The translations under genes were made by a program, and so were the position numbers. 64,000 nt of DNA from Streptomyces coryli (GTDB taxonomy: Bacteria; Actinomycetota; Actinomycetes; Streptomycetales; Streptomycetaceae): assembly GCF_011044975.1 (NCBI RefSeq), contig NZ_JAAKZV010000018.1, positions 1-64,000 on the forward strand, written 5' to 3'. Shown here in pieces: positions 2,055 through 23,351 of this stretch (its first letter is position 1; every line of letters begins with the position of its first letter). The notes under the pieces are model-generated. The model saw only the letters and a program-made list of their open reading frames with translations, did no database searches and was not told the origin of the DNA.

Positions 2055-2074
2055 ATTACGGTCCTAGCCGAAAT
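2055..2074. promoter_or_regulatory. Operator copy 1 (ATTACGG-TCCTAG-CCGAAAT)
   Basis: Imperfect 20-bp palindrome, half sites of seven bases around a six-base centre, 19 bases before the GTG of the SIS gene. It matches five further copies between 11 and 23.4 kb (consensus RTTACGGTCYRGRCCGWAAN). It implies the SIS-kinase pair has its own regulated promoter inside the regulator A unit. Position over the start region suggests repression. Confidence 0.75.
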
Positions 2075-2093
2075 TAAGCGCGAGGGGTGTCGA

Positions 2094-2870
2094 GTGATCG
2101 AAGAGACGACTGCCGCAGCGGACTTGGCCGACACCTATGCCGCGACCGCGCTGGCCCAGCTCGGCCGCGTGGTCGAGCTGCAGCGCGACGCCATCGCCGC
2201 CGGGGGAGCGGCCATCGCCGGGGCCCTTGCCTCGGGCGGCATCCTGCATGCGTACGGGACGGGGCACTCGCGCAGCGTGGCACTTGAGCTGGTCGCGCGG
2301 GCCGGCGGCCTGATCCCCACCAATCTGCTCGCCATCAAGGACCTGGTGCTGTGGGGCGACCGGCCGCCGGAATCGATCCGCGATCCGAAGCTGGAGCGCG
2401 AATCCGGCGTCGCCGAGGCCGTGCTCGGTCTGCACGACGTGCGGGCAGGCGATGTCATGGTCATCGCGTCCAACTCCGGGCTCAACCCCGCCATTGTCGA
2501 GATGGCGCGGCTGGTGCGGGACCGGTCGGTGCCGGTGATCGCCATCGGCTCGGTCGAGCACAGCCGGACGATGGCCAGTCGGGATGCTTCGGGGACGTCG
2601 CTCTTCGACAATGCGGATGTCGTCGTGGACACCCTCACGCCGGCGGGGGACGCGGTCGTCCCTCTGCCGAGCGGCGGGTACGCCTGCGGTACGTCGACGC
2701 TGAGCGCTGTGCTTGCCGCCCAGTTGCTGGTCGCCCGCGCGATCGAGGAGCTCGAGCGGAAGGGCGTGCACATCCCCGTCTACCGCTCGATGAACACCAG
2801 CGGCGCCGACGCCCCGAACGCGGAGGCGGAGCGCGCGTGGGCCGGGCGGCTGCGGCCGGTCGAGGCCTGA
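2094..2870 (+). CDS. SIS-domain phosphosugar isomerase/deaminase-like protein
   Basis: 258 residues. I chose the GTG at 2094 because GAGGGG lies six bases upstream, and the operator sits where an earlier start would put coding sequence. The N-terminal helix is followed by the sugar-isomerase fold: the YGTGHSRSVALE loop binds a phosphate, ASNSGLNPAIVE is the second phosphate/substrate loop, and the C-terminal PLPSGGYACGTSTLS segment is typical of stand-alone bacterial SIS proteins. Such proteins isomerise or deaminate phosphorylated (amino)sugars in the cytoplasm. It is followed after six bases by a sugar kinase, so the pair probably handles phosphorylation and isomerisation of one imported sugar. 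The exact substrate is not readable from the sequence. Confidence 0.85.
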   Translation: MIEETTAAADLADTYAATALAQLGRVVELQRDAIAAGGAAIAGALASGGILHAYGTGHSRSVALELVARAGGLIPTNLLAIKDLVLWGDRPPESIRDPKLERESGVAEAVLGLHDVRAGDVMVIASNSGLNPAIVEMARLVRDRSVPVIAIGSVEHSRTMASRDASGTSLFDNADVVVDTLTPAGDAVVPLPSGGYACGTSTLSAVLAAQLLVARAIEELERKGVHIPVYRSMNTSGADAPNAEAERAWAGRLRPVEA

Positions 2871-2876
2871 GCGCTG

Positions 2877-3809
2877 GTGGACGAAAGGATCGTAGTCGCC
2901 GTCGACCAGGGCAAGTCGGGTACGCGCGCCGCTGCTTGCGCAGGTGACGGCGAGCGTCGCCAGGCTGTTGCCGCCGGCGCTGAGCCCGGCACCACCGGGG
3001 TCCACGGCGTTGTCGCCGCGGTCGCGGGGCTTCGGCTTCCGCGTCGTCCACCCGACGTGGTGGCCGTCGGCACCACTGCGGCACCCGCGGGTCCTGACGA
3101 GCGCGGCGAGCTGGCCCGGCTGCTACGGCACAGGCTGGGCGCGCGCCGGGTCCTCGTCGCCGAGGATTCCGTTACGGCCCATCTCGGCGCCCTCGGCGGG
3201 GCGCCCGGGGTCGTGGTGTCCGCCGGGACGGGCGCCGTTGCGATGTGGTCGGACGGCCAACGGTGCGTCCGCGTGGACGGGTTGGGTCCGATTCTGGGGG
3301 ATCACGGCAGTGGTGCGGACATCGGGCGCGCCGGCCTGCGCGCGGCCTTCTCCGCCGCCGAGGGCCGCGGCCCCGCGACCGCCCTGGTGGAGCCGGCGCG
3401 GCAGCACCTAGGCGGGCTCGGCCTGGACGGCGCCCGGCGGCTGCACGCGTCCTCCAGCCCCACCGAACTCGTCTCGGCCTTCGCGATCGCCGTGCTACGC
3501 GCCGCCGGGGAAGGCGACGCGGTGGCCGCCGAGATCGCCGCCCGCGCCGCCGACGCTCTCGCCACCAGCGCGGCACTGGCCGCGGAGCCCGGCCTGGCCG
3601 CCGACCCCGCACCCGCGCGCCCGCGGTGCTGCGCCGTAGGACGTCTCATGCGCAGCGAGGCGCTCGCCGCCGCCTTCACCCGGCGGGCCACCGAGTTGGG
3701 CCTCACCGTGGCCGCCCCCCACGCCGACGCCCTCGCCGGCGCCATGCTGCTCGCCACGAACGGCCCCGGCCCGGCCTTCGCTGACCTCGTGGGGGCGGCC
3801 GGCCACTGA
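2877..3809 (+). CDS. BadF/BadG-type N-acetylglucosamine kinase-like sugar kinase
   Basis: 310 residues from a GTG start, six bases after the SIS gene. The actin-like ATPase fold is visible: phosphate-1 loop near the start (VAVDQGKSGTRAA), the phosphate-2 region VVSAGTGAVAMW, then the substrate-side GPILGDHGSGADIGRAGL motif that is diagnostic of N-acetylglucosamine/glucosamine kinases of the BadF/BadG/BcrA/BcrD group. It probably phosphorylates an amino or N-acetylated sugar using ATP. It shares an operon with the SIS protein and lies under operator copy 1. Length is normal for the family. Confidence 0.85.
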   Translation: MDERIVVAVDQGKSGTRAAACAGDGERRQAVAAGAEPGTTGVHGVVAAVAGLRLPRRPPDVVAVGTTAAPAGPDERGELARLLRHRLGARRVLVAEDSVTAHLGALGGAPGVVVSAGTGAVAMWSDGQRCVRVDGLGPILGDHGSGADIGRAGLRAAFSAAEGRGPATALVEPARQHLGGLGLDGARRLHASSSPTELVSAFAIAVLRAAGEGDAVAAEIAARAADALATSAALAAEPGLAADPAPARPRCCAVGRLMRSEALAAAFTRRATELGLTVAAPHADALAGAMLLATNGPGPAFADLVGAAGH

Positions 3810-3911: not shown

Positions 3912-5993
3912 CTAGTACCACTTCACCTCGAGCAGCTTCCCGCCCTGGACGTAGAACTTGTTCGGTCCCGGTGACACGGCCGCGAAGGACGTTTTGTAGT
4001 TCGGGCCCGTGTCGGTGAGGGTGTCCGGATCGATGCGCCTCGTCATCCCGTTGGTCGTGTAGATGGCGTTGTCGCCGGGGTCGTACGCCATGTTCACCGC
4101 TCGCGGCTGGAAGTTGGTCACGGTGTCCCAGGCGTACGGGAACTGCTCCACCGAGCGGAGCAGTTTCCCGGAGGCCGGGTCCAGCTCGAAGACCGTGCCG
4201 TAGGACTGGCCGAAGAGCCGGCCCTGGCCGTCGAAGGTGAGGCCGGCGATGCCCTGCTCCTTCGGGAGTGGCGTGGACCGCCAGCGGACCTCGCCGGATG
4301 CCGCGTCCAGGGCGAAGGCCTGGCCGGGGTGCTTGGAGCCGTCGGCGTTGCAGCAGCCGAGGGTGCCGCCGTAGACGGTGCCGTCGCGGTAGGTCAGCGC
4401 GGAGATCTGGTTCGCGCCCGTGGCCAGGCCCGAGGTCCAGGTGCGCTTCTCGCCCGTCGCCGGGTCGTAGAGGGTGACCGCGCCGTTGGCCTGGCTGTTC
4501 TTGGGGGAGGTGCCCACGGCGACGTAGCGGCCGGCGCTGACGACCGTCCATGGTCGTTCCTGGCCCTCGGACTTGAGGTCAAACAGGAGCTTGGGGTTGG
4601 TGGCCCCGTAAGGCTTGGCCGGGTCGTACTCCCAGAGCTGGGCGTTCGGGTAGACCCCGAAGTACATCTTCCCGTCGTGCGCGCCCATCCCCTCGATCTG
4701 GTGGGCGTACGGGTGGGTCTGCCACTTGGTGGTCGCCGGGTCGTACACGGCCAGGCCGCCCTGGAAGTAGCCGCCCGCGTAGATCCGCCCGTCCGGGCCC
4801 TTCGCGAGGGACCGTGGTGCGGTCGGCGTCCCCCTCAGGCCATCCAGATGGCCGAAGGTGCCGGTCTTCGTCACGGTGTCGTAGCGCCAGAGATCGCCGC
4901 CCGACGTGGCGCCGACGATGGTCTCGTGGCCGGTCGCCGGATCGGTCACCCGGCCCAGGCCCTTTCCGGCGCCGAGGCCGCCCTTGTCGGCCTGTTCGGT
5001 GCCGCCCTTGAAGCCGGTCCCGGTCAGGACACCGCGCTTCGGGTCGTAGCGCTTCAGCTCGCCCGAGTCGACGAGGTATACCTGGCCCTGATCATCCGCG
5101 GAGGTGATCGTCTGGCCGCCGTAGCCCGCGATCTTGTGCTCCCACTCCAGGGTCTTGAGGTTGAGCACCCACCCGACCGAGGCGGAGGTGCCGCCGGAGA
5201 AGAGGACGTAGAGATAGCCGCCCTCGTTCTCGAGCTGGTAGGCGTACTTGTCGGTGGGCATGCCCGGTGGCGGCGGGATCTCGACGCGCTTTCCGCTCTT
5301 CGGGTCGACCTGCCACAGGGCGGTGTTCGGGCCCAGGCCCGCGTAGATCTTGCCCTCCGCGTGTTCCACGGAGCGTACGTAGCCGTACTTCGCGCCCCAG
5401 TCCCCGTAGTCGCGGTACTTCCGGGTGCTCGGGTCCCACGAGAAGAGCTTCCCGCCCGGCAGCGGCGCCGGACCGAAGAACTCGCTGGTCCCGAAGTAGA
5501 AGACGCCCTGTTCGTCGGTGTCGCCCTCCCAGGTGAAGCTGGTCCGCGGGGACGGCCGTCCCAGGTCCTCGATCTTCTCTGCCTGCCAGGGCAGCCGGTA
5601 GACGTGGCCGAAGCCGTACGAGCTGACGAACACCGTGCCCCGCTTGTCGACGGACACGCCCCACGCGCCCTGGGCGCCGGTGTCCGGCGGCTGCTCGGTC
5701 GAGGAGGAGTCGGGGACGTGGAGCGGGATCATGCGCAGGACCTTCGAGGAGAACGTGTCGATCTCCGCGAGATAGGCGGGCTTGCCGCTCACCGTGAGAT
5801 AGGTCCGCACCGAGCCATCCGGCATCCGGGCGGTCTCGCCGCCCGCCGCGGTGGTGGAGGTGAGCGGGATCTCGCCGCGGTCCCACGTTTCGGGCGCCGC
5901 CGCCGAGGCCGGGGGTGGTGCCCCGACGCCGGTGACGGCGAGTGCTGCCACCAGCATCGTCATCACGATGAGCAATCGTCGCCACCGGATCAT
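3912..5993 (-). CDS. Secreted PQQ-like beta-propeller protein 1
   Basis: About 693 residues. I prefer the ATG at 5993 (GGAG six bases upstream) over the ATG four codons earlier. A Sec signal follows (MIRWRRLLIVMTMLVAALA, cleavage after an ASA motif). The mature protein is built of repeated blades with signatures such as GTVFVSSYG, GKLFSWDP, GKIYAGLG and DGRIYAGGYFQGG, typical of PQQ/quinoprotein-like beta-propellers, with no obvious catalytic motif. It is the last gene of a five-gene minus-strand operon read from 11071. It is paralogous along its length to the product of 6998-9040. A binding or scaffolding role outside the cell is more likely than a redox role, since PQQ-binding residues cannot be identified. 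Confidence 0.8.
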   Translation of the reverse strand: MIRWRRLLIVMTMLVAALAVTGVGAPPPASAAAPETWDRGEIPLTSTTAAGGETARMPDGSVRTYLTVSGKPAYLAEIDTFSSKVLRMIPLHVPDSSSTEQPPDTGAQGAWGVSVDKRGTVFVSSYGFGHVYRLPWQAEKIEDLGRPSPRTSFTWEGDTDEQGVFYFGTSEFFGPAPLPGGKLFSWDPSTRKYRDYGDWGAKYGYVRSVEHAEGKIYAGLGPNTALWQVDPKSGKRVEIPPPPGMPTDKYAYQLENEGGYLYVLFSGGTSASVGWVLNLKTLEWEHKIAGYGGQTITSADDQGQVYLVDSGELKRYDPKRGVLTGTGFKGGTEQADKGGLGAGKGLGRVTDPATGHETIVGATSGGDLWRYDTVTKTGTFGHLDGLRGTPTAPRSLAKGPDGRIYAGGYFQGGLAVYDPATTKWQTHPYAHQIEGMGAHDGKMYFGVYPNAQLWEYDPAKPYGATNPKLLFDLKSEGQERPWTVVSAGRYVAVGTSPKNSQANGAVTLYDPATGEKRTWTSGLATGANQISALTYRDGTVYGGTLGCCNADGSKHPGQAFALDAASGEVRWRSTPLPKEQGIAGLTFDGQGRLFGQSYGTVFELDPASGKLLRSVEQFPYAWDTVTNFQPRAVNMAYDPGDNAIYTTNGMTRRIDPDTLTDTGPNYKTSFAAVSPGPNKFYVQGGKLLEVKWY

Positions 5994-6037
5994 CGTTCGC
6001 TCCATCCTGGAATGAGAAGCCGAAGAAGTCGGAAAAC

Positions 6038-6991
6038 TCAGAAGTCGCCGAGCCCGCGCAGGAAATCGATCCGCTCCATGGCGTGGAGCGCCCCGCCGCC
6101 CTCGTGCTCGTTGAAGGGGTAGACCCGGATGTCCGCCGGCCCGGCGTAGTGGTGGTACGCCGCGTACACCGTCGACGGCGGGACCACCGGGTCCATCAGC
6201 GCCACCGAGAACAACGCCGGCGCCGTCGCCCGCGCCGCGAAGTTCATGCCGTCGAAATAGCTCAGCGTCCGGAACGTCTCCTCCGCCAACTCCGGCCGCT
6301 TGCGCAGGAACTGGGCCACCTCAAGGAACGGCACCCGGTCGGAGACCAGCGCCCCGCGCCGGTGGTCGCACAGGAACGGCACATCGGGGAGCACCGCGTC
6401 CAGCCCCGCCACCAGCCCGGACACCGCCAGCGCCAGACCGCCGCCCTGGCTCGGTCCCGCCGCCGCGAGCAGCTCCGCGCCCACCAGGTCGCGGGCCGCG
6501 TCCACCGCCCGTACCGCATCGGTGATCAGACGCCGCAGATAGTGCGCCTCCGGATCGTGCGCGCCCTGCGTCATGAACCCGGGCTCGTGCGGCCCGGAGG
6601 ACACGGGGGAGATGTCCCCCGTGTCCCCGCGGGAGTGCCCGCGCGCGTCGACCACGAAGTGCGCGAGCCCGCAGGCCGCGTACAGCAGATGCTCGTGTAC
6701 GCGGCCGCGGCCCACGCCGTACCCCTGGAACTCCACCACGCACCAGCGGGCCGCCCGCCCCCGCGGCAGCACCAGCCAGCCCCGGACCGGCTCGCCCGCC
6801 CACCCGGCGAAGGTCACGTCGTACGTGTCGACGGCGCGGACGCCTACGTCGACGCGGACGGCCTTCGGCGGGTCGGTGACCGTACGGGCCGCGTCCAGGG
6901 TCTTGGCCCAGAACGCGTCGAAGTCCGGCTCGTGGGTGAGCGCGGGACGGTAGCGTTCCAGCTGGTCCAGGGGCAGGTCGAGCATCGGCAT
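6038..6991 (-). CDS. CE7-family acetyl esterase (acetylxylan esterase/cephalosporin deacetylase type)
   Basis: 317 residues, no signal peptide, hence cytoplasmic unless exported by another route. An alpha/beta-hydrolase with all family landmarks: GYG oxyanion-region motif near residue 91, DARGHSRGD near 115, nucleophile GPSQGG with Ser181, Asp267 in LMDPVVPP, and His296 in NEHEGG. CE7 enzymes remove O-acetyl groups from short xylo- and other oligosaccharides. It sits between the two secreted beta-propeller genes, with six bases to the upstream gene, so it is co-transcribed with them. This suggests that the substrate imported or degraded by the island is O-acetylated. Confidence 0.9.
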   Translation of the reverse strand: MPMLDLPLDQLERYRPALTHEPDFDAFWAKTLDAARTVTDPPKAVRVDVGVRAVDTYDVTFAGWAGEPVRGWLVLPRGRAARWCVVEFQGYGVGRGRVHEHLLYAACGLAHFVVDARGHSRGDTGDISPVSSGPHEPGFMTQGAHDPEAHYLRRLITDAVRAVDAARDLVGAELLAAAGPSQGGGLALAVSGLVAGLDAVLPDVPFLCDHRRGALVSDRVPFLEVAQFLRKRPELAEETFRTLSYFDGMNFAARATAPALFSVALMDPVVPPSTVYAAYHHYAGPADIRVYPFNEHEGGGALHAMERIDFLRGLGDF

Positions 6992-6997: not shown

Positions 6998-9040
6998 CTA
7001 CGCCACCTTCCACGCCAGCAGTTCGGCGTCCTTGGCGAAGAGCAGCTCGCCCGCGTTGTAGACCATCCGCAGGGCGGGCTGGTCGAACAGCGGCTGCCAC
7101 TTGCGGCTGTTGGTGTCCACCTTGATCACGTGCTTCCCGCCGACGTGCGCGTACAGCGTGCTGCCGTCGTCGGCCAGGGCGAGCTGGCCGGCGCCGCCGC
7201 CGTCGCCCTCGGTGGTGTTGAGGGTGTGCAGCGTGCGGCCCGTCTCCGGGTCGAGCCGCAGCACGTCGCCGTCCACGATCGCCCAGAGGCGGCCGGCCTC
7301 GTCCCGGGTGATGGCCGAGATGGTCTTGGCCTTCGCCGACGGGTTGACCTCCCAGAGCTTCTTGCCGGTGGCCACGTCGTAGGCGAAGACGGTGGCCTTG
7401 TCCTGGGTGGGCGGGGTGGTCGAGATGCCGCCGGCGACCGTGGTGGTGCCGTAGACGACGCCGTCGCCCGCGGTGAGGGAGGTGATGCCCTCGTCCTTGA
7501 CGAACTGGTCGAGGACCTTCTCCTGCTTGCCGGTCTTCTCGTCCAGCACGGCGAGGCTGCCGCCCAGGGTGTCGCCGGAGGGGGTGGACCCGGTCACGAT
7601 CTTCCCCGCGGTCACCGCCAGGCCCTGCAGCCGGCTCTGGGTGTGGGAGTGCAGGTCGAGGAGCTTGGCCGGGTTCTCCGTGCCGCTCGGCGGCTCATCG
7701 CTGTACTCCGAGCTGTACCAGGGCTTTGCCGGGTCGTGACGGTAGACCCGGGCGTCGGGGTAGGCGCCGATGAGCAGGCCGTTCGAGGTCGGCAGCAGCG
7801 ACTCGATCTGGCTGAAGCGCTCGTACGTCGCCTTGCCGTCCGCCGTCGATACGGTCGCGAGGCCGCCCTGCAGGAACCCGCCCGCGTAGACCTTGCCCTT
7901 GCCCGCGGAGGCGAGCGCGAGGATCTGGGTCGGCTGCCCTGGCACGCTGCTGCGCACCGTTGCGGACTTCCCGGTCTCTGGGTTGTAGCGGAACATCAGG
8001 CCGCGCCACGTCAGCCCGACGATGCTGTCGCCCGGGAAGCCGTCGCCCTCGACCGGCGCCCAGCCGATGCCGCGGGTGTTCACGATCCGGCCGTACGACT
8101 TCAGGCCGGTGCGCTGCTGGGCCTGCGTCTCGGGGTTGTAGCCGATGAGCTCCGCGGAGCCCGCCTCGAACTGCCGGTAGAACCAGACCCGTCCGTCCGG
8201 GCCCGGCGGGGAGACGTCGAGGCCTGCCGCGCCCTCCACCGTGTCCGTCCAGGCGCCCTTGGTGAGGTCGTAGACCCGCAGCGGTCCTGGGAAGGTGCCT
8301 TCGCGGGCGTAGAGGAAGTTGCCGTGGGCGCGCAGGTCGTTGACGATCTTCCCCTTGGGCTCCGTCATCCCGGGCGGCGCGGGCAGCTGGCGCTTCGCGC
8401 CGGTGGCCGGGTCGAGTTCGGTGACCTTCCAGGAGGAGTACGCGCCCGCGTAGATCTTGCCGTTCGCGTACGCGATGCTCTTCACATAGGTCTCGCCCGC
8501 CGCCATGGCGCCGAAGTCCTTGAACTGCTTCGTCTCCGGGTTCCAGCTGAAGACCTTGCCGCCGGGCGAGGTGCCGCCGTAGACGGTGCCGTCCGGTGCG
8601 ATGACGATGCCCCACACGTAGGTCTCGCCCGCGATCGGGACGCCCAGGTCCTCGGCCTTGGTGGCGCCCGGCGCCAGCCGGAAGAGCTTGCCGTCGCCGT
8701 ACGTGCCCGCGTAGACCGTGCCGTCCTTCGCCTGCTCCACGCCGTACGCCCCGGAGGAGCCGGGGAGCGGCACGTTCAGCAGCGGCTTGCCCGAGGTGGG
8801 GTCGACCGCGCTGAGGGAAGCGGGGGTGCCGGAGGTGGCCGTCCAGATCACCTTCTTGCCGTCGGCCATCGTGCCGACGGTGCCGCCCAGGTGGAGGACG
8901 TCCTTCAGCGGCGTCCCCAGGGAACGCGGGCCTTCGGGGGCCGCGGCGTCGCCGGCGGATGCGGACTGCAGGCCGGTCGCGGCGAGCACGGCGACCAGCG
9001 CCGCGATCACCGCCAGGAGCATCGTTCTCGGTTGCCGCAC
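6998..9040 (-). CDS. Secreted PQQ-like beta-propeller protein 2
   Basis: 680 residues. The start is a GTG at 9040 with GAGGAAG upstream; the frame is open further upstream but with non-coding character. Signal peptide VRQPRTMLLAVIAALVAVL is followed by an Ala-rich cleavage site. Blade repeats recur: DGTVYAGTYGDGKLFR, DGTVYGGTSPGGKVFSW, GKIYAGAYSSWKV, GKVYAGGFLQGGLA. Block order matches the propeller at 3912-5993, so the two are paralogues in one operon, separated by the CE7 esterase gene. The likely role is extracellular glycan or surface binding; no active-site residues can be named. Confidence 0.8.
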   Translation of the reverse strand: MRQPRTMLLAVIAALVAVLAATGLQSASAGDAAAPEGPRSLGTPLKDVLHLGGTVGTMADGKKVIWTATSGTPASLSAVDPTSGKPLLNVPLPGSSGAYGVEQAKDGTVYAGTYGDGKLFRLAPGATKAEDLGVPIAGETYVWGIVIAPDGTVYGGTSPGGKVFSWNPETKQFKDFGAMAAGETYVKSIAYANGKIYAGAYSSWKVTELDPATGAKRQLPAPPGMTEPKGKIVNDLRAHGNFLYAREGTFPGPLRVYDLTKGAWTDTVEGAAGLDVSPPGPDGRVWFYRQFEAGSAELIGYNPETQAQQRTGLKSYGRIVNTRGIGWAPVEGDGFPGDSIVGLTWRGLMFRYNPETGKSATVRSSVPGQPTQILALASAGKGKVYAGGFLQGGLATVSTADGKATYERFSQIESLLPTSNGLLIGAYPDARVYRHDPAKPWYSSEYSDEPPSGTENPAKLLDLHSHTQSRLQGLAVTAGKIVTGSTPSGDTLGGSLAVLDEKTGKQEKVLDQFVKDEGITSLTAGDGVVYGTTTVAGGISTTPPTQDKATVFAYDVATGKKLWEVNPSAKAKTISAITRDEAGRLWAIVDGDVLRLDPETGRTLHTLNTTEGDGGGAGQLALADDGSTLYAHVGGKHVIKVDTNSRKWQPLFDQPALRMVYNAGELLFAKDAELLAWKVA

Positions 9041-9078
9041 AGGGCTTCCTCTCTCAATGGGGGGGGTACTGGCGTGGG

Positions 9079-10086
9079 TCAGCTGGGGACGGCGAAGAGA
9101 TGCGTCATCGCCGAGGTGTGGTTGGGGGTGTCGCCGGACTGGCCGGTGGAGTCGGTGAGCCCGGACGCCGCGCCGCCGACCGAGCCGATGTCGCCGCCGG
9201 TGTGGGTGGTCGTCACCTGGGCGTGCACCTTGTCGCAGCCGGGGGCCAGCGTCACGATCGTGTAGAGCGGGATGGCGGCGTGGTTCACGCCGCGGGGCAC
9301 CGACTCCGTCGTGGTCGCGGCGGGGGCGCTCCCGCAGCCCGTACCGCCCGACGTGGTGGCGGTGAGCGTGAACTTGGCCGCGGAGTAGTTGGCGGTGCAC
9401 GGCTCCGTGCCCGCGCAGCGGTGGTACTCCACGTCGGCGATGACGGCGAGCTTGGAGTAGCCCGGCGGCAGGGTGCGGTCGAGGACCGGCGCGGTGGTGG
9501 TGCCGGTGACCGGGAGGTTGCCCTCGGGGAGGGACTTCTGCAGGGCGAGGCCGCTCGCGTCCTCGCCGACCGAGGTGTCGGCGAAGCGCAGATTGCCCGA
9601 GACGGTCTCCTTGGCCACGTAGGCGGAGGTCGACGCGGTGCGCAGGTAGAGCGTGCAGTTCAGGGTGCCTGAACTGGTCGCGGAGACCAGGAAGCGGGTG
9701 ATGATGTTGATGTCCCGGTGGGCCGGGTCGCCGGTCGACGGGAGTACGTTCTCGCCCATCACGACGTTCGAGCTGCCGGCGCCCGAGCAGCGGACCTCGT
9801 TGTCGACGAGGTTGACCTGGTCGGCGGCGTAGGCGCGCAACTCCGAGTACACGTAGGCCGTCTGGCCCGCGGTCACGGTGGTGCTGATGGTCGCCATCGG
9901 GACGACCTTCTGGGTCGCGGGCGTCCCCACCGGAGGCGCCTTCGGGATGTCCATGATCACGGTCGGGCCGAAGTCCTGCGAGGTGGCGGCGTCGGCCGTG
10001 CCGGTGCCCATCAGGACGCCGGCGAACGCGGCGAGGGCGGCGGTCGAGGCCACCACGAGCCGTCTGAACCGGGCGTGCGTTTTCAT
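9079..10086 (-). CDS. Secreted six-cysteine protein A (unknown family)
   Basis: 335 residues; ATG with GGAGG upstream. Signal peptide with a basic start (MKTHARFRRLVV) and an ADA cleavage motif. The mature part is rich in Thr, Ser and Val like a beta-sandwich protein, and has six Cys (in NEVRCSG, LNCTL, YHRC, TEPC, GTGCGS, APGCDK) that match the number and order of Cys in the neighbouring protein at 10109-11071. I do not recognise a family. Being second in the operon with two propellers and a deacetylase suggests an extracellular binding role for the same substrate. Confidence 0.75.
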   Translation of the reverse strand: MKTHARFRRLVVASTAALAAFAGVLMGTGTADAATSQDFGPTVIMDIPKAPPVGTPATQKVVPMATISTTVTAGQTAYVYSELRAYAADQVNLVDNEVRCSGAGSSNVVMGENVLPSTGDPAHRDINIITRFLVSATSSGTLNCTLYLRTASTSAYVAKETVSGNLRFADTSVGEDASGLALQKSLPEGNLPVTGTTTAPVLDRTLPPGYSKLAVIADVEYHRCAGTEPCTANYSAAKFTLTATTSGGTGCGSAPAATTTESVPRGVNHAAIPLYTIVTLAPGCDKVHAQVTTTHTGGDIGSVGGAASGLTDSTGQSGDTPNHTSAMTHLFAVPS

Positions 10087-10108
10087 GATTCCTCCGGGAG
10101 TCTCCGAT

Positions 10109-11071: not shown

Positions 11072-11096
11072 GTGGGCGCTCCCAGCGTCTTCCACT

Positions 11097-11116
11097 ATTA
11101 CGGACCGGACCGTAAT
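11097..11116. promoter_or_regulatory. Operator copy 2 (ATTACGG-ACCGGA-CCGTAAT)
   Basis: Twenty-base palindrome with perfect seven-base arms, 26 bases upstream of the first gene of the secreted-protein operon. It belongs to the six-copy set of the island. Confidence 0.85.
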
Positions 11117-12174: not shown

Positions 12175-12194
12175 TTTACGGTCCGGGCCGAAAA
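12175..12194. promoter_or_regulatory. Operator copy 3 (TTTACGG-TCCGGG-CCGAAAA)
   Basis: Palindromic 20-mer in the divergent gap between the LLM oxidoreductase (19 bases from its start) and the DapA-like lyase (65 bases from its start). It can control both promoters. Confidence 0.75.
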
Positions 12195-15276: not shown

Positions 15277-16397
15277 GCGGCGTGCACCCGGCGGATCGCC
15301 TCGGCGATGTCCGCCACGTCGTCGGGGGTGTAGGCCTCGTTCCAGGGCAGGACCAGCAGCGTCCGGTCGATCAGCCGCTCGGCCTGCGGGCAGAGCCCGT
15401 CCGGGTAGCCGCTGAAGACCGGGTTCGCGTACAGCGGCCGCTCCAGATAGCCCGGCATGGCGGGTACGCCCTCGGCGGCGAGGCCCTTCGCCCAGCGGGC
15501 GTTGTCGTCGACCAGGAGCGGGAAGAGCCACCACGCGTGGCCGTCGGGGCGCGGCGGCAGGGTCACGCCGTCCAGGTCGGCCAGGGCGGCGGCGAGCTGT
15601 TCGGCGCGCTCACGCCGCACCCGGACCACCTCGGCGACCTTGCCGAGCTGCGCCCGCGCCACCGCCGCGGCGAGCTCGGTGATCCGGTAGTTCAGGCCGG
15701 GCTCGCGGTGGATACGGCCCTCGGTGCGGTCCCAGCCCTTGTCGGCGAAGAGCCGCATCCGGCGGGCGAGTTCGGGGTCGTCCGTGATGGCGAGGCCGCC
15801 GTCGCCCGCGGTGATGTGCTTGTACTGCTGCAGCGAGAAGCAGGCGATGTCGCCCGTGGTGCCGAGGAGCCGGCCGTCCCCGTCCTCGCCCAGCCACGCC
15901 TGCGCGCAGTCCTCGATGAGCAGCAGCCCATGCGCGTCGCAGATCTGCCGCAGCCGGGCGGTGTCCGCGGCGCCGCCGAAGAGGTGCACGGCGATGACGG
16001 CGCGGGTGCGTGGGGTGATCGCCGCCTCGACGGCCTCCGGGTCGAGATTGCCGTCCTCCGCCCGTACGTCGGCGAAGACCACCCGGCCACCCTGAGCCAG
16101 CACCGGGCCGACCGTGCCGAAGTCCGAGATGGGGGTGGTGATGACCTCGTCGCCGGGGCCGATCCGGGCGGCGGCGACGGCCAGGTGCAGCGCGGCGGTG
16201 CCGGAGCTGCACGCCACCGCGGCCTGCCGCCCGTAGAGCTGCGCCATCTCCTCCTCCAGCGCCCGGCCCTCCCCGCCGAACGTGCTGCACAGCACGCCGG
16301 AGTCGAGCACCCGGAGCACGGCCGCGCGCTCCTCGGCGCCGATCGTCCGGCCTCCGGGTTCGAGCACCGTGGGCAGTGGCGTGTCCCGTACGGGCAT
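15273..16397 (-). CDS. DegT/DnrJ/EryC1/StrS-family PLP sugar aminotransferase
   Basis: 374 residues, ATG with AGAGG upstream. Fold type I PLP enzyme: cofactor phosphate site ACSSGTAALH (63-71), Asp in LLIEDCAQAW (163), and Schiff-base Lys193 in SLQQYKHITAGDGG, the family signature. Members transaminate keto-sugars or keto-cyclitols with Glu or Gln; some act in the reverse, catabolic direction. As first gene of a three-gene operon with two amidohydrolase-fold proteins, and under operator copy 4, a catabolic role on an amino sugar or aminocyclitol is plausible. No nucleotide-sugar synthesis genes lie nearby, which argues against antibiotic or LPS sugar biosynthesis. Confidence 0.88.
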   Translation of the reverse strand: MPVRDTPLPTVLEPGGRTIGAEERAAVLRVLDSGVLCSTFGGEGRALEEEMAQLYGRQAAVACSSGTAALHLAVAAARIGPGDEVITTPISDFGTVGPVLAQGGRVVFADVRAEDGNLDPEAVEAAITPRTRAVIAVHLFGGAADTARLRQICDAHGLLLIEDCAQAWLGEDGDGRLLGTTGDIACFSLQQYKHITAGDGGLAITDDPELARRMRLFADKGWDRTEGRIHREPGLNYRITELAAAVARAQLGKVAEVVRVRRERAEQLAAALADLDGVTLPPRPDGHAWWLFPLLVDDNARWAKGLAAEGVPAMPGYLERPLYANPVFSGYPDGLCPQAERLIDRTLLVLPWNEAYTPDDVADIAEAIRRVHAA

Positions 16398-16424
16398 GGC
16401 GGCAGGTCCTCTCGACGCGGCGCG

Positions 16425-16444
16425 ATTATGGCCTGGACCGAAAA
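16425..16444. promoter_or_regulatory. Operator copy 4 (ATTATGG-CCTGGA-CCGAAAA)
   Basis: Weaker member of the 20-bp palindrome set, 28 bases upstream of the DegT gene in the 241-base divergent region shared with the enolase-superfamily gene. Confidence 0.7.
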
Positions 16445-16566
16445 GTAAGCGCCGTGGTTGCGGACCGTCAAGGTCTCGATCGCCCGTCTCTCGCGTCTCA
16501 GCTGCCCAAACCCCGCTTCTTCGCGCCGAGATGAGCATCCGGCCCTTGTTACCGCAGGTTCCGCCA

Positions 16567-16586
16567 GTTACGGTCTAGGCCGTAAC
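16567..16586. promoter_or_regulatory. Operator copy 5 (GTTACGG-TCTAGG-CCGTAAC)
   Basis: Perfect seven-base arms (GTTACGG/CCGTAAC), 52 bases upstream of the TTG of the enolase-superfamily gene. Together with copy 4 it gives each divergent promoter its own site; centres are about 142 bases apart. Confidence 0.85.
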
Positions 16587-16638
16587 TAGGTCATCGGGCC
16601 GGGCTATGCACCCCCGGCCGCAGTGTCAGGAGCCGCGC

Positions 16639-17715
16639 TTGAGAATCGCCTCGGTCCGTACGCGCGTCGTTTCGGCGCCGTATCTGCGTCCCTTTGTCAT
16701 CAGCAGCGGCACCAGTCCGCAACTCGTCAGCCTCGTCGTCGAGGTGGAGAGCGCGGACGGCCTCTCGGGTTTCGGCGAGGCCTCGCCGATGACCGCGTTC
16801 ACCGGCGACACCATGGCCGGGCTGCGGGCGGCCATCGACGACCATCTGGCCCCCGCGCTGACCGGCCTCGACCCCCGCGATCTGGCGGGCGCGCATGCCG
16901 CGATGGACGCGGCGATACGCGGCCAGCACCTGGCCAAATCCGCGCTCGACATGGCGCTGCACGACCTGGCCGGACGCAGCACGGGGTGGCCGGTGCACCT
17001 GCTGCTCGGCGGACGGGTCAGGGAGAGCGTGCCGACCGCGTGGGTGGTGGGCCTCGGGACGCTGGAGGAGATGACGGCGGAGGCCGTCGAGTACGCGGGC
17101 AAGGGCTTCACGCACATCAAGGTGAAGGGCGGTGTGGACCCGGCGCTGGACGTGGAGTTGGTACGGGCCGTACGCGACGGGCTGCCCGCGGGCGTGGAGC
17201 TCTCCCTCGACGCCAACGAGGGCTATGACTACGGCACCGCCGCCCGCACCCTTCGGGCGATGGCGGACGCGGGCCTCGACCTGATCGAGCAGCCGCTGCC
17301 GCACTGGGACGTGGCCGGCCTCGCCCGGCTGCGCGGCCAGACCGGGGTGCGGGTGATGGCGGACGAGAGCATGCAGTCGCCGCACGACGCGCTGGAGCTC
17401 ATCCGCCGGGACGCGGTGGACGTCCTGAACATCAAGATCCTCAAGGTCGGCGGCCTCTACCGGGCCCGCCAGATCGCCGCCCTGGCCGAAGCCGCAGGCC
17501 TGGCCGTGAAGATCGGCACCATGCCGGAACTGGGCATCGCCACCCTCGCCGCGGTGCACCTCGCGGCCGCCCTCCCGCACGCGACCGTCCCCGCCGACCT
17601 GGTGGGCCCGCTGCTGGTGGACCAGGAGCCGCTCGCCCCGACCGCGTTCGCCGCCGCGACCGGCGGGTGGGTGAAGGTGCCGACGGGGGCCGGGCTCGGG
17701 CACGAGCTGGGCTAG
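16639..17715 (+). CDS. Enolase-superfamily enzyme (mandelate racemase/muconate lactonizing type)
   Basis: 358 residues. I chose TTG at 16639 because AGGAG precedes it by six bases; an upstream ATG at 16606 has no ribosome site. Capping domain in the first 130 residues, then the barrel with the KxK motif (K161, K163 in THIKVKGG), metal ligands D191 (SLDAN), E217 (LIEQP) and D242 (MADES), and the opposite-face Lys266 in NIKILKVGG. This is the muconate-lactonizing/dipeptide-epimerase subgroup layout. Such enzymes abstract a proton alpha to a carboxylate. It is divergent from the DegT operon and carries operator copy 5, so it is part of the island regulon. The substrate may be a sugar acid or a cyclic acid. 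Confidence 0.88.
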   Translation: MRIASVRTRVVSAPYLRPFVISSGTSPQLVSLVVEVESADGLSGFGEASPMTAFTGDTMAGLRAAIDDHLAPALTGLDPRDLAGAHAAMDAAIRGQHLAKSALDMALHDLAGRSTGWPVHLLLGGRVRESVPTAWVVGLGTLEEMTAEAVEYAGKGFTHIKVKGGVDPALDVELVRAVRDGLPAGVELSLDANEGYDYGTAARTLRAMADAGLDLIEQPLPHWDVAGLARLRGQTGVRVMADESMQSPHDALELIRRDAVDVLNIKILKVGGLYRARQIAALAEAAGLAVKIGTMPELGIATLAAVHLAAALPHATVPADLVGPLLVDQEPLAPTAFAAATGGWVKVPTGAGLGHELG

Positions 17716-17730
17716 GGCACGAGCTGGGCT
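17698..17730. repeat. Tandem duplication of 16 bases across the enolase stop codon
   Basis: The 16-mer GGGCACGAGCTGGGCT occurs at 17698-17713 and again at 17715-17730 (period 17). The first copy encodes the last residues before the TAG; the second is untranslated. The remaining 17731-17972 shows no further gene. Confidence 0.9.
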
Positions 17731-17972
17731 GGGGAGCGATGGCTTTCAGCCACGCGGGTCCGCGGGGGAGCGGTGCCGGCCGCCGCTTCCGGCGCGGGCC
17801 GTGCGCTGCTGCCTCCACCTCGCGGTGACGCGGTGGTCGCCGGGCCCTCACCGGCCCCGCCCGGACCGTTCACAAGCCACGTGGCGCAACACCCCATCGA
17901 CCTGTGCGAGTTCCGCTTGTTTCCATGGTGATCACCGGCGCAGTGATCAGACGAGACAGGGGGAAATTTCGT

Positions 17973-18991: not shown

Positions 18992-20230
18992 TCACAGCTG
19001 CACGCGATACACCGTCCGCGGGCGGCCGACCGGCTCCTGGCGGGCGCTGCCCACGGGGACGGCGACGCCCGCCCGTTCCAGCCGCTTGAGGATGCGGCGG
19101 GCGGTGCGTTGCTGCACCGACAGGTGCTCGGCTACGGCCTGGGCCGTGACTCCGTCCTCGGAGCCGGTGTCCTCGACCAGTTCGCGCAGGCGGCCGAGGG
19201 TCTGGGCGTTCAGGCCGACGCGGCGGGCGAGCATCGCGAGGCTTTCGGGGCCCGGCGCCGGGCGGTCGCCCGGGCCGCCGCTCTCCGCCTCGATGACGAT
19301 GTCGACGTCGTCCTGCATCGACACCACGCCGGCGACGGCGCCGACCGAGCGGGCCCGGTTCACCGCCCGTCGGGCGAGGGACTCGGCCTCCGCGGCCGTA
19401 CGTCCCAGGCCGAAGCCCACATGCGCGGTGTCGTGCCGGGCGGCGAGCGCGTCGAGCAGCGGCAGCCGGGTGAAGCGTTCGCTGGCGTTCTCCAGCACGC
19501 CGCGGGTGGTGACGACCAGCCGCTGGCCGTCCGGGAGGTCGGCGAGGCTGCCGCCCAGCACCGCCAGGTCCGCGGCGAGTTCGGTATCGGCGGCCGGGAT
19601 GTCGATGATGCCCAGCGCCACCTGCGCGTCGCCGCTGTGCGCGGCCGACGCGGCGAGCACCAGCGCCTGCAGGGTGGCGCGGATGGAGTGCCGGGAGGGC
19701 GCGAGGCGCACCGTGTGCATCTCGCTGTCGAGGGTGTGGAAGGCCGAGCCGAGGCAGGTGACCGCCACCTGGGTGCGCTTCTTCTCCCGGGCGCCGCGGT
19801 GGAATTCGACCAGATCGTCCCCGGTGAGACCGGGACGGTACGGCTGCACGTGCACATGCTCCGTCGGCAGCTTGGCCTCGGTCAGCGTCTCCATCACCTC
19901 GGACCGCAGCAGCGTGTCGATGGAGATGCGGGAGACGTCGTGGCCGAGCCGCAGCAGCTCCACCAGCGCGCGCAGCAAGGTGGCGCCGCTGTACGGGACA
20001 TACATCGCGGGGCGGTCCAGCAGCCCCTCCGCCGCCGCGCGGGAGTGCGGCACGACGCCGGTGAACAGCAGCGCGTCGGCGTCCGACCTGGCCTTGCGCA
20101 CCACCTCGACGGCGTCGTCCTCATGCCGGTACGGCCACGGCACCAGCCGCTCCGTGCCGGCGGCCCCGACGGCCAGGACCTTCTGCACGAGGTCCTCGGG
20201 ACCGACCACCCCCACCGTGAGCACGCTCAC
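18992..20230 (-). CDS. Ligand-sensing winged-helix regulator B of the island
   Basis: 412 residues from a GTG that overlaps the permease stop (GTGA). It shares its layout with regulator A at 804-2021: Rossmann-like start (VLTVGVVGPEDL), LLFTGVVPHSRAAAEGLLDRP, YSGATLLRALVELL, a cyclase/GGDEF-like block (VGFGLGRTAAEAESLARRAV), and a C-terminal winged helix (AQAVAEHLSVQQRTARRILK). It is the fourth gene of the ABC importer operon, so its level rises with transporter expression. I infer that it or its paralogue binds the 20-bp palindromes; which one does what cannot be read from sequence. Confidence 0.78.
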   Translation of the reverse strand: MSVLTVGVVGPEDLVQKVLAVGAAGTERLVPWPYRHEDDAVEVVRKARSDADALLFTGVVPHSRAAAEGLLDRPAMYVPYSGATLLRALVELLRLGHDVSRISIDTLLRSEVMETLTEAKLPTEHVHVQPYRPGLTGDDLVEFHRGAREKKRTQVAVTCLGSAFHTLDSEMHTVRLAPSRHSIRATLQALVLAASAAHSGDAQVALGIIDIPAADTELAADLAVLGGSLADLPDGQRLVVTTRGVLENASERFTRLPLLDALAARHDTAHVGFGLGRTAAEAESLARRAVNRARSVGAVAGVVSMQDDVDIVIEAESGGPGDRPAPGPESLAMLARRVGLNAQTLGRLRELVEDTGSEDGVTAQAVAEHLSVQQRTARRILKRLERAGVAVPVGSARQEPVGRPRTVYRVQL

Positions 20231-21126
20231 CCCTTGATCCCAGACATGACGACGCCTTCCTGAACGTACCGCTGACCGACCAGATAGGCGAAGAAGATGG
20301 GCACAAGCGCGACCACGGATCCGGCCAACAGCTGGTTGAGTGGCACCTGTTGCTGGTTCAGCGAGGCGATGCCGGTGGTCAGCGTACGCATGTCCGTGCC
20401 CTGCGCGATGACCAGCGGCCACAGGAAGTCGTTCCAGTGCCACAGGAAGACGAAGATCCCGAGGGTGGCGAGGATCGGCTTGGTGAGCGGCAGCACGATG
20501 GACACGTAGACCCGCCACTCCGAGCAGCCGTCGAGGCGGGCTGCCTCGAAGAGCTCGTCCGGCAGCGCCTGGATGAACTGCCGCATCAGGAAAACGGCCT
20601 GGGCGTTGGCGAGGGTCGGCACGATCAGACCCCAGTACGTGTCCACGCCGCCGGCCTCGGCGATCAGGATGAAGGTGGGCACCAGCGTGACGTGGTACGG
20701 CACCATCACCATCGCGATGAAGGACCAGAAGAGCGGCTCCTTGCCGGGGAAGCGCTTCTTGGCGAAGGCATAGCCGGCCATCGAGGCGAGCAGCAGCACC
20801 AGCACCACGGAGACCACCGAGTACACGGCGGTGTTCAGCGTCCAGCGCAGGATGTCCTGGGCGCCGAGGATGTCGGAGTACGCGCCGCCGTCCAGGTCCC
20901 AGGGGGTGAGGCTGCCCGGGAAGCTGATCGCCTGCGCCGGCTTCAGCGACAGCACGACCATCGCGTAGAAAGGGAAGACGGCGACCAGCGAGCCGAGGGT
21001 GAGCAGCACGCCGCGGCCGGTCGTGCGCAGTCGCTTCCCGCGCCGGGCCCGGCGGCGGTCGGCGTCGGCGGAGCTGTCCACGCCCTGCCCGACCGTCGTG
21101 GGGCGGGATGCGGTGGTCACGGTCAT
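20227..21126 (-). CDS. Sugar ABC transporter permease, MalG type
   Basis: 299 residues. Six predicted membrane helices, the first at about 40-60 (LLTLGSLVAVFPFYAMVVLS). The EAA loop (LFEAARLDGCSEWRVYVSIVLPLTKP) that contacts the ATPase is intact. It imports an oligosaccharide or sugar derivative with the neighbouring permease and lipoprotein. Its ATG overlaps the stop of the other permease (ATGA). No ATPase gene is present in the window, so a shared ATPase such as MsiK, encoded elsewhere, is expected. Confidence 0.92.
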   Translation of the reverse strand: MTVTTASRPTTVGQGVDSSADADRRRARRGKRLRTTGRGVLLTLGSLVAVFPFYAMVVLSLKPAQAISFPGSLTPWDLDGGAYSDILGAQDILRWTLNTAVYSVVSVVLVLLLASMAGYAFAKKRFPGKEPLFWSFIAMVMVPYHVTLVPTFILIAEAGGVDTYWGLIVPTLANAQAVFLMRQFIQALPDELFEAARLDGCSEWRVYVSIVLPLTKPILATLGIFVFLWHWNDFLWPLVIAQGTDMRTLTTGIASLNQQQVPLNQLLAGSVVALVPIFFAYLVGQRYVQEGVVMSGIKG

Positions 21127-22043
21127 TTGTCCCTCCCCAGGAGCAGCCGCTGGATGAGCGCCACCACCAGCGTCATGATGAACAGCGCGACGCCGATGGC
21201 ACCGGCATAGCCGAGGTCGAAGTACTTGAACCCCTGCTCGTAGAGGTCGAATACGAGGGTGAAGCTGGCGTGCGCGGGACCGCCGCCGGTCATCGTGTAG
21301 ATGGCGTCGAAGGCCTGGAAGGACATCGTCGTCTCGATCACAGCGAGGAAGAACAGCGCCGGGCGCAGCTGCGGCAGCACCACGTGGCGGAAGCGCTGCC
21401 AGGCGCCGGCCCCGTCGACGGTGGCGGCCTCCTCCAGCTCGCGCGGCACGTTCTGCAGCGCGGCGAGCAGGATCAGCATGCCGTAGCCGAACCGGGACCA
21501 GACCCCGACCAGCGCCAGTGCCGGGATGACCATGGTGGAGCTCTCCAGCCAGGGCGTGCCGCCCAGGCCGATCCAGCCGAGCATGGTGGTCCACGGCCCC
21601 TCGGCCGAGAACAGCCAGCGGAAGATCGCGCCGGCCAGCACCAGGCTGGTGATCACCGGCAGGAAGAACACGGACCGGAAGAACCGCACCCCGCGGAAGG
21701 CGCGCCGCGTCAGCAGCGCCATGCCGAGCGCGGCGGCGACGGTGACCGGCACCGCGATCAGCGAGTAGACCAGGGTGACCCGGAGGGCCGACCAGAAGAC
21801 CGGGTCCTCCCACAGCCGGCGGAAGTTGTCGAGGCCCTTCCACTCGGCGGTGCCGCCGATGGTGTAGTCGAAGAACCCGAGCACCCCGCCGGCCACCGCG
21901 GGGCCGAAGCGGAAGACGAGGAAGAGCACGAGACACGGCAGTACGAACAGCAGGCCCGCCATGGCGTCGTGGCGGGCGAGCACGGACCGGCGCCGGCGGG
22001 GCGGCGCCGATCCGTGCTTGCGTGCGGTGAGCTGGGTGGCCAT
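21123..22043 (-). CDS. Sugar ABC transporter permease, MalF type
   Basis: 306 residues. A basic cytoplasmic N-terminus, then six membrane helices starting with AGLLFVLPCLVLFLVFRF. The EAA loop reads ELEEAATVDGAGAWQRFRHV. It is the first permease after the binding protein and shares a one-base TGATG junction with it, so synthesis is coupled. Typical length for carbohydrate uptake family 1 permeases. Confidence 0.92.
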   Translation of the reverse strand: MATQLTARKHGSAPPRRRRSVLARHDAMAGLLFVLPCLVLFLVFRFGPAVAGGVLGFFDYTIGGTAEWKGLDNFRRLWEDPVFWSALRVTLVYSLIAVPVTVAAALGMALLTRRAFRGVRFFRSVFFLPVITSLVLAGAIFRWLFSAEGPWTTMLGWIGLGGTPWLESSTMVIPALALVGVWSRFGYGMLILLAALQNVPRELEEAATVDGAGAWQRFRHVVLPQLRPALFFLAVIETTMSFQAFDAIYTMTGGGPAHASFTLVFDLYEQGFKYFDLGYAGAIGVALFIMTLVVALIQRLLLGRDK

Positions 22044-23278
22044 CAGCCGGTGATCCCCTTCGCGGCCTTCTCCGCGTCCTCGAGGGCCTTCGCCGGCGAC
22101 TTCTTGCCGGTGAGCGCTGCCTGGATCTCCGGGGAGAGCACGCCCATCACGTCCCGGGCCTTCTCGTACAGCGGGCCGACATTGACCTTGTTCAGGGACT
22201 TCTCCATCTGCCCGTTCACCGGGTCGCCGGCGTACAGCTCATTGCCGTCGAGCGGGGAGAAGAAGCCGGACTTCTTGTCGTAGTCGTCCATGGTCTTCTT
22301 GGCCGTGACGAAGTTGATCCACTTCGCCGCCGCGTCCTTGTCCCCGGCCTTCTTGAACATCGACAGCGAGCCCACGGTGCCGTACGCCACCTGCTGGTCG
22401 TCCTTCAGCGGTCCGACGACGTGAATGTTCTCCTTGCCCCAGAACTTCTCCACCTCGATGGGGACGTGCTGCCAGGTGCAGCCGACCTTGTTCCGGCCGA
22501 TCCTGGTCTGCTCGATGTTGAGGTTGGCCTTGGTCAGCGCCGACTTCTCGGTGTAGCCGTCGTCGGCGAGCGTGCGCAGGAACTTCAGGGCCTTGACGCC
22601 CTGCGGGCTGTTGAACGCGACGGACTTGCCGTCCTTGCTGAAGACGTCCCCGCCCGCCTGCCACAGCAGCGGGTAGTAGGTCATGTTCAGGGTGGCGGTG
22701 GCGTCGCCGTTGTACGTGATGATGTCGAAGCCCTTGGCCTTGAACTTCGGCGCCAGCTTCAGCAGGTCGTCCCAGGTGGCGGGGAAGTCCTTCTCGCCCA
22801 CCGCGTCGAAGACCTTCTTGTTGCAGATCAGCGGGTTGCTGCTCATCAGCAGCGGGGCGCCCATGAGCTGGTCGTCCACGGTGGCCGCCTTGAGGGCGGC
22901 GGGGCGGTACGCCTGCTTCGCCTCGGGGGAGATGTGCTCGTCGTACGGCTCGATGTTCGGCGCGTACTTGGGGAGCTGGTCGGGGATCAGATAGCCGACG
23001 TCGGGGCCCTTGCCGCCCGCCATCGCGGTGGTCAGCTTCTCATCGCGGTTGGCCCAGGGCAGGATCTCGACCTTGACGTCGACCTTGGGGTTCTCCTTCT
23101 CGAACTCCTTCTCCGCCGCGTCCCAGAAGGCGCGGTGCTGCTTCTCGTCGATGATCACCGGATACGTCCACATGGTCACCGTGGACTTGCCCCCGGCTCC
23201 TCCGGAGCCACCACACCCGGCCAGCAGGGTGCCCGCAACCGCCAGCGCACCGACGGCTATCACCTTTCTGTGCCACAT
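22043..23278 (-). CDS. Extracellular sugar-binding lipoprotein of the ABC importer
   Basis: 411 residues, ATG with GAGGAAG upstream. Signal peptide with a lipobox LLAGC, so it is anchored to the outer face of the membrane. Solute-binding family 1 features: VTMWTYPVIIDEKQHRAFW start, FEKENPKVDVKVEILPW, GPDVGYLIPDQLPKY, and a Trp/Tyr-rich C-lobe. It captures the substrate for the two downstream permeases. Operator copy 6 lies 54 bases upstream and a further half site beyond that. Aromatic residues suggest a carbohydrate ligand; the specific sugar is unknown. Confidence 0.92.
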   Translation of the reverse strand: MWHRKVIAVGALAVAGTLLAGCGGSGGAGGKSTVTMWTYPVIIDEKQHRAFWDAAEKEFEKENPKVDVKVEILPWANRDEKLTTAMAGGKGPDVGYLIPDQLPKYAPNIEPYDEHISPEAKQAYRPAALKAATVDDQLMGAPLLMSSNPLICNKKVFDAVGEKDFPATWDDLLKLAPKFKAKGFDIITYNGDATATLNMTYYPLLWQAGGDVFSKDGKSVAFNSPQGVKALKFLRTLADDGYTEKSALTKANLNIEQTRIGRNKVGCTWQHVPIEVEKFWGKENIHVVGPLKDDQQVAYGTVGSLSMFKKAGDKDAAAKWINFVTAKKTMDDYDKKSGFFSPLDGNELYAGDPVNGQMEKSLNKVNVGPLYEKARDVMGVLSPEIQAALTGKKSPAKALEDAEKAAKGITG

Positions 23279-23331
23279 GTCTGCTTCCTCGCCCTCTCGC
23301 GCCGCGACGACCCCGGCGTCCACCGTCCAAC

Positions 23332-23351
23332 GTTTCGGTCTGGACCTTAAT
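23332..23351. promoter_or_regulatory. Operator copy 6 (GTTTCGG-TCTGGA-CCTTAAT) plus half site
   Basis: Sixth member of the 20-bp palindrome set, 54 bases upstream of the binding-protein gene. An extra right half CCGTAAC lies at 23374-23380, between this site and the divergent SRPBCC gene, with no recognisable left partner. Confidence 0.72.

Follow-up and report, generated by a model that had tools for sequence, protein, structure and literature searches.

Do six copies of a 20-bp palindrome along one stretch of Streptomyces coryli DNA mark a single regulon, and which protein would read them? The stretch comprises 64,000 nucleotides (contig NZ_JAAKZV010000018.1, positions 1 to 64,000; hereafter the window). 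A preliminary description had proposed that about 17 genes are coordinated here by one repressor. Our analysis supports a coordinated local regulon of that size: the six palindromes are the six top-scoring sites of the window, they recur in relatives, and the operons behind them comprise 17 genes, including that of a regulator which we call REGB (411 aa; 18992..20227, minus strand; the last gene of the importer operon). The idea of one repressor is not supported in that form. The island encodes two paralogous regulators, the other being REGA (405 aa; 804..2021, plus strand), and the six sites split into sites 1 and 2, which are REGA-linked, and sites 3 to 6, which are REGB-linked. We consider it probable that two paralogous repressors, REGA and REGB, use the palindromes as operators, and that the operons behind these are induced together. 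The regulon is very probably real, and probably two overlapping ones. Other genomes and loci are identified below by our own handles (G and L numbers).

All six palindromes lie where they had been placed. Two belong to the REGA-linked class: operator 1 (2055..2074), before a gene pair for a SIS-domain protein and a kinase, and operator 2 (11097..11116), before a secreted-protein operon. The REGB-linked class comprises operator 3 (12175..12194), between divergent genes for a luciferase-like monooxygenase (LLM) and a DHDPS-family protein; operator 4 (16425..16444), before the DegT operon, with a -10 box, TACTTT, whose last bases are also part of the operator; operator 5 (16567..16586), before the enolase gene (ENOL); and operator 6 (23332..23351), before the importer operon. 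The pattern TTACGG-N6-CCGWAA is matched exactly by 4/6 sites (core starts 2056, 11098, 12176 and 16568). Copies 4 and 6 are indeed weaker, with one mismatch on the better strand (cores at 16426 and 23333), and the claim that none occurs elsewhere in the window holds for matches with no or one mismatch. Two mismatches bring in four more places (15770, 19132, 55770 and 60073). At three mismatches the window has 64 matches against 37.5 expected, a mild enrichment, and by itself this loose pattern is unconvincing as evidence for the set. The distances to start codons, claimed to be 19-65 bases, measure 18 to 64, apart from those of SEC2 (1 or 25) and ENOL (19 or 52), which are ambiguous because their start codons are uncertain.

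The preliminary description had treated the palindrome centre as a free N6, which does not hold: the six central bases are conserved. Allowing up to three mismatches, TTACGGTCYRGACCGTAA matches the window 5 times against 0.01 expected, site 1 being the one excluded. When the window was ranked with a matrix, the six palindromes came out on top (31.1 to 20.4), followed by a seventh match at 13.9, and the best score in Markov surrogates of the window (n=200) was 18.2, below all six. This matrix was built from 34 distinct sites of genomes with REGB only, which had been gathered with a window-derived matrix, so that the ranking is not fully independent; the pattern searches (loose, strict, one-mismatch and the Prescottella search below) make no use of it. 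The seventh-best match (19131-19150, GCTACGGCCTGGGCCGTGAC, 13.9 to 14.5) falls within the REGB coding sequence, near the codons of the helix-turn-helix (HTH), and is probably due to chance.

The motif is closely tied to the regulator. In a sample of 392 Streptomyces genomes, where presence was called at an E-value cut-off of 1e-40, 16 encode the regulator. The strict motif occurs in 27/392 genomes, namely in 16/16 with the regulator and 11/376 without it. All 38 strict sites in the regulator-bearing genomes (38/38) are at island genes. Two of them lie off the main locus: one in G323, on another contig before the importer, and one in G050, where the module is split and LLM, DHDPS-family, importer and propeller genes have kept their sites about 1.3 Mb from REGB. 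The 11 regulator-free genomes carry 12 strict sites, each of the form TTTCGG..CCGAAA, and no relatives of island genes (E 1e-6) were found near 11 of these 12 in one 3-kb locus per genome. The form of the strict motif with a TTACGG half was found in 0/376 Streptomyces genomes without REGA or REGB. A one-mismatch search of 20 regulator-bearing genomes placed 64/65 sites at regulon loci, the exception being on G818 contig 17, and a reversed control pattern had 1 match in the same genomes. G002 has zero matches to this REGB-type one-mismatch pattern, yet five sites by matrix. The loose TTACGG-N6-CCGWAA form with one mismatch also matches outside regulon loci, with 16 to 23 matches per genome on both strands in G001, G002 and G003, versus 8 to 11 for the control.

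A record from outside these groups provides a different view of the same association. On plasmid p1-WH99 of a Prescottella equi soil strain, a regulator 44% identical to REGA is encoded 3' of an L-serine ammonia-lyase gene, in an operon divergent from an oxidoreductase-MFS transporter operon. Besides the regulator, the only relatives of window proteins on the plasmid at the cut-off used are of the DHDPS family (38% and 31%). Between the two divergent operons is the palindrome ATTTCGGTCAGGACCGTAAT, with a matrix score of 30.2, and it is the sole one-mismatch match in the 431,692-bp record. In Nonomuraea gerenzanensis and in G815 and G818, both from the genus of G002, which have regulators of a third lineage (see below), sites occur at DegT, importer or propeller genes. 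The Nonomuraea gerenzanensis record (NZ_LT559118.1, L129; 11.85 Mb, filed as a plasmid) contains a second regulator match.

Random scatter over genomes and a lack of conservation in orthologous islands had been named as outcomes that would speak against a regulon. In the relatives, the strict and one-mismatch searches do not find the sites scattered, and the palindromes are conserved in the orthologous islands. Gene order varies between islands, and palindromes still stand before the LLM/DHDPS, DegT/REGB, enolase and importer genes. Among island palindromes scoring at least 18, 83/90 are upstream of island genes; of the remaining 7/90, three are flanked by a second DegT gene on one side and by LLM or a regulator gene on the other, and four run into the 5' end of the enolase alignment. 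The importer binding protein of REGB-only islands, 38-44% identical to that of the window, has a palindrome in front at 15 loci (score at least 18), and in G343 weak sites alone were found near it. Several operons therefore share an operator motif that exceeds chance expectation and is kept in relatives. REGA/REGB is the sole regulator family common to all islands for which a regulator was fetched. Strong sites (at least 27.0) not directly upstream of the queried genes are also present, in L105 (G050) at 9075, L115 (G815) at 8048, L113 (G818) at 17316 and L129 at 21395, and their neighbours may be further regulon members.

The regulator is rare in the sampled actinobacteria. It was found in 1/35 Actinacidiphila genomes (G003 itself), in 3/6 of Actinophytocola, the genus of G002, and in 2/396 genomes of a phylum-wide sample; no REGA relative was found in viral contigs. 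One of the two phylum-wide cases, G613, is a distant form (32% identical) with a changed HTH, which has no site of at least 13 nearby and two below 12. As a single case, this fits the model of operators for two regulators. Around the distant regulator of G613 (L103, L104) are DegT, DHDPS-family and enolase-type genes, together with a second regulator, of GntR type, that carries a periplasmic-binding domain. No such palindrome accompanies them; perhaps a related pathway is under another operator there.

What kind of proteins are REGA and REGB? The two are 49% identical and nearly the same in the HTH core, VQQRTARRxLxRLERAG. HTH matches of the family are weak and C-terminal (about residues 345-395), that of REGA to HTH_IclR, at residues 345-384, having 21.1 bits, below the cut-off of 22. 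IclR regulators combine an N-terminal HTH_IclR with an IclR effector domain; in REGA the HTH is C-terminal and under the gathering score, and Pfam gave no match to the effector domain. GntR/HutC regulators have a GntR winged helix at the N-terminus and UTRA as the sensor domain; UTRA was absent among the families listed, and GntR appeared only as a weak match, in 6/20 members. LacI and ROK regulators pair an HTH particular to their family with a domain of periplasmic-binding or ROK kinase type, and neither REGA nor REGB had a LacI, ROK or periplasmic-binding-type match in Pfam or NCBIfam. NCBIfam has no family for either protein, and PDB yielded no convincing relative for REGA or the family profile, whose five matches had E values of up to 5, the best (0.036) in an HTH. 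By these comparisons REGA and REGB likely belong to one family, unnamed in the searched libraries, that has a winged helix at its C-terminus. The REGB relatives in L073 (G362; 16231-17715) and L069 (G009; 17186-18790) match in two pieces, with DNA gaps of about 240 and 400 bases, and possibly contain insertions in an open frame.

The sites themselves fall into two classes. The REGA-linked set comprises the sites at the SIS, PQQ1, SEC and REGA genes of the window, G001 and G003, and all sites of G002. A YCYRGR centre is found in 0/12 of these sites and an outer A/T (ATT end) in 21/24 half-sites, versus 12/12 and 7/24 for the REGB-linked sites of the window, G001 and G003. Genomes with REGB only resemble the latter (centre in 48/55 sites, outer A/T in 17/110 half-sites). 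Within the three two-regulator genomes alone, the centre occurs in 0/7 REGA-linked versus 12/12 REGB-linked sites. REGA is 76-80% identical in G001, G002 and G003, where it stands beside sites of the REGA-linked class (class A). In a regulator tree to which Nonomuraea and Prescottella had been added and from which G613 was left out, REGA and REGB each form a solid clade (100/100). The G815, G818 and Nonomuraea regulators make up a third lineage whose place the tree does not settle (69/49), and Prescottella is on a long branch. Third-lineage sites have the YCYRGR centre in 6/17 cases (3/11 in G815/G818, 3/5 in Nonomuraea and 0/1 in Prescottella). A tree without these changes had grouped the G815 and G818 regulators with REGA (83/100), a grouping lost once Nonomuraea and Prescottella were included and G613 was not, and we dropped the YCYRGR count of 3/23 for a REGA side that included G815/G818 sites, as the tree does not support that grouping.

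Several operators are placed where a bound protein would interfere with transcription. We defined a strict promoter as TTGAC-N16-19-TANNNT on the gene's strand, with its -10 at -16 to +6 of the operator start. Such a promoter is present at 18/19 DegT operators, with the -10 at -2 or -3 in all 18, and at 17/21 importer operators, with the -10 at -2 in 14. It touches the operator in 4/4 SEC and 2/2 PQQ1 cases, and at DHDPS the operator's own TTTACG is paired with TAGCGT in 16/17. Controls gave 28/18,800 for Markov surrogates (a subset of segments) and 13/94 for reverse strands, the latter probably because what counts as a REGB segment is a DegT promoter in reverse orientation. Within the window, promoter and operator overlap at DegT, SEC2 and DHDPS. 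The repressor-like arrangement that had been proposed is thus borne out at DegT, SEC, PQQ1 and DHDPS, and at the importer in other genomes: operators overlap or adjoin promoter elements, a geometry that suits a repressor.

Computation shows where the sites are, that they are conserved and tied to the regulator, that operators overlap promoters and that the sites form two classes; binding, dimerization, repression, release by an inducer, the pairing of paralogs with classes and the type of substrate are what we infer. When inducer is absent, a dimer of the regulator would sit on the 18-bp palindrome, and, bound beside the -10 box and the region of the start or covering the -35, it would block RNA polymerase. 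A saccharide or breakdown intermediate, bound in the N-terminal part, would free the DNA, turning on import, secreted and catabolic genes together. REGB may govern sites 3-6, with the YCYRGR centre, and through them LLM and the lyase, DegT and the amidohydrolases, the enolase, the importer and REGB itself. REGA may govern sites 1-2, with ATTACGG flanks and another centre, and through them the SIS-kinase pair, secreted proteins and esterase. The proteins could then be a new transcription factor family whose paralogs have diverged in how they read the centre and flanks of the palindrome, separating an outer programme (secreted proteins, esterase and kinase; REGA) from an inner one (importer and catabolism; REGB). 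We hold this division to be an evenly balanced proposition, and rate it slightly lower than we had because of the third lineage. Perhaps each programme answers its own ligand.

A number of observations weigh against this reading. LLM is present in 15/16 regulator-bearing Streptomyces and 0/376 others; its link to the regulator is as tight as that of the motif, so that co-occurrence in Streptomyces cannot separate regulator from enzymes as the motif's partner. Prescottella is the better test of that point, and it is a single record. Sites linked to REGA and REGB follow the class rule, and those of the third lineage are mixed; the p-value of 2e-5 in the two-regulator genomes is not to be taken at face value, as the sites were already known when the groups were chosen and the sequences share descent. 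G002, the sole REGA-only genome, is a metagenome-assembled genome whose lack of REGB may reflect incompleteness. No strict promoter was found at LLM (0/17), ENOL (0/9), PROP (0/11), SIS (0/3) or REGB (0/12), nor at the importers of G001, G003 and the window. The N-terminal part of the regulator, in which a ligand would be held, matched nothing in PDB or Pfam and has no recognised ligand-binding family. A structure model of REGB built from six sequences is poor, with a mean predicted local distance difference test score (pLDDT) of 51.5 and only the C-terminal winged helix moderately confident.

In a rival arrangement, REGB would be the sole reader of the six sites, with REGA either redundant or devoted to other targets, and the classes would reflect only separate descent of the promoters. 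The HTH cores of the two proteins are near-identical, most Streptomyces islands manage with REGB alone, sites within one promoter are related by descent, and the centres are mixed in the third lineage. Against this stand the retention of REGA beside class A sites in three genomes, the split of 0/7 versus 12/12 inside the two-regulator genomes, and G002, where REGA alone was found and the sites are class A; we regard REGB acting alone as rather unlikely. The same palindromes could also serve activators, which too can bind near promoters, and the starts of LLM, ENOL, PROP and SIS have no strict promoter that would fix the geometry. In 18/19 DegT cases, however, the operator begins 2 or 3 bases after the first base of the -10, and in 14/21 importer cases 2 bases after it, so that a bound protein would block the start region, and activation seems improbable to us.

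A regulator from elsewhere could bind instead, DasR or another member of GntR/HutC being the natural candidate: the DasR element also contains GGTCTAGACC, its dre consensus A(G/C)TGGTCTAGACCA(G/C)T having the same core (PMC4398421), and the enclosing genes look sugar-related. Yet the outer bases are TTACGG in our palindromes and A(G/C)TGG in dre, no other regulator family is common to the islands, and DasR is described as widely present in Streptomyces (PMC9404778), while the TTACGG-half motif was found in 0/376 genomes without REGA/REGB, no search for DasR itself having been made. We consider this very unlikely. That the palindromes are terminators or mobile repeats deserves almost no credence; they are short intergenic inverted repeats, as such elements would be, but 83/90 are upstream of island genes, many touch -10 boxes, and 1/65 lies outside regulon loci in the 20 genomes. 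Operators for two paralogous repressors are our preferred reading.

How does such a system compare with known ones? Actinobacterial carbohydrate repressors (LacI, ROK and similar) are typically encoded in or beside an importer operon, with operators at importer and enzyme promoters. The island is laid out alike, and it differs from these local systems in its two paralogs and two operator classes and in that REGA and REGB have no LacI, ROK or periplasmic-binding-type sensor domain. The DasR regulon (PMC4398421) unites sugar transport and breakdown genes under the palindromic dre element. The likeness extends to a palindromic operator with a GGTCTAGACC-type core and to sugar transport and breakdown genes. 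The differences are that the outer bases here are TTA/CGG where dre has A(G/C)TGG, so that these sites are not dre operators; that the HTH of REGA/REGB is C-terminal, with no GntR match at the Pfam cut-off; and that the palindrome regulon is local, in 16/392 Streptomyces genomes. Limited literature searches by motif strings and gene sets found no on-topic paper among the matches listed.

The genes point to a substrate, with low confidence. In the REGA-linked part, the SIS-domain protein (2094..2870, plus strand; PRK02947) is a relative of NagS (SCO4393), matching PDB 9eol (NagS) with E 1e-30 and, more closely, 3cvj, a putative phosphoheptose isomerase. NagS is an N-acetylglucosamine-6-phosphate dehydratase, as reported in PMC12680351; here its sequence relative is paired with a gene for a BadF-type sugar kinase-like protein (2877..3809, plus strand), which resembles hexokinase and N-acetylmuramic acid/N-acetylglucosamine kinases. 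Together, 2094-3809 might encode a small kinase plus dehydratase/lyase pathway. The secreted-protein operon, on the minus strand, contains two secreted-type proteins, propellers and an AXE1 esterase: SEC2 (10109..11095; alternative ATG at 11071) and SEC1 (9079..10128; start approximate), both probably secreted and without a Pfam family; the propeller protein PROP (6998..9016; start approximate); the AXE1-type acetyl esterase (6038..6991); and the PQQ/kelch-type propeller protein PQQ1 (3912..6005), which has its own operator in G003 and G002. Because of the relatives of the SIS protein, kinase and esterase, an amino or acetylated saccharide is tentatively suggested as the substrate.

The REGB-linked part comprises LLM (11173..12156, minus strand), the DHDPS-family lyase/aldolase-like protein (12259..13236, plus strand), the amidohydrolases AMH1 (13790..14530) and AMH2 (14530..15276), both PF04909 and, like the DegT-type aminotransferase (15273..16397), on the minus strand, and ENOL (16606..17715, plus strand), an enolase-superfamily (MR/MLE) protein whose true start may be the TTG at 16639. 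ENOL is nearest to chloromuconate cycloisomerase and dipeptide epimerases, a poor fit to a plain sugar-acid pathway. The importer genes, on the minus strand, encode a carbohydrate-type solute-binding protein (22043..23278), ABC permease 1 (BPD_transp_1; 21123..22043) and ABC permease 2 (20227..21126), the last named from its position and conservation beside permease 1 and not from Pfam. An importer and several enzymes are thus present; the rest of the proposal that the island is a complete uptake-and-degradation system for one substrate we infer. Within the island stretch, the genes at 13254-13715 and 17973-18968 have no palindrome of their own. Outside the palindrome regulon, the window holds a 2675-codon open frame (49635-57662, minus strand).

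If the operator assignment is right, a regulator family nameless in the libraries searched gains a defined DNA target, predicted to the single base, and about 17 genes whose biochemistry is unassigned would be joined into one or two programmes. The operator is seen in four actinobacterial families (Streptomycetaceae, Pseudonocardiaceae, Streptosporangiaceae and Nocardiaceae) and may be used as a probe for more genes of the pathway. Two paralogs that split the operators of a single island would offer a natural case for how sister repressors divide their binding sites.

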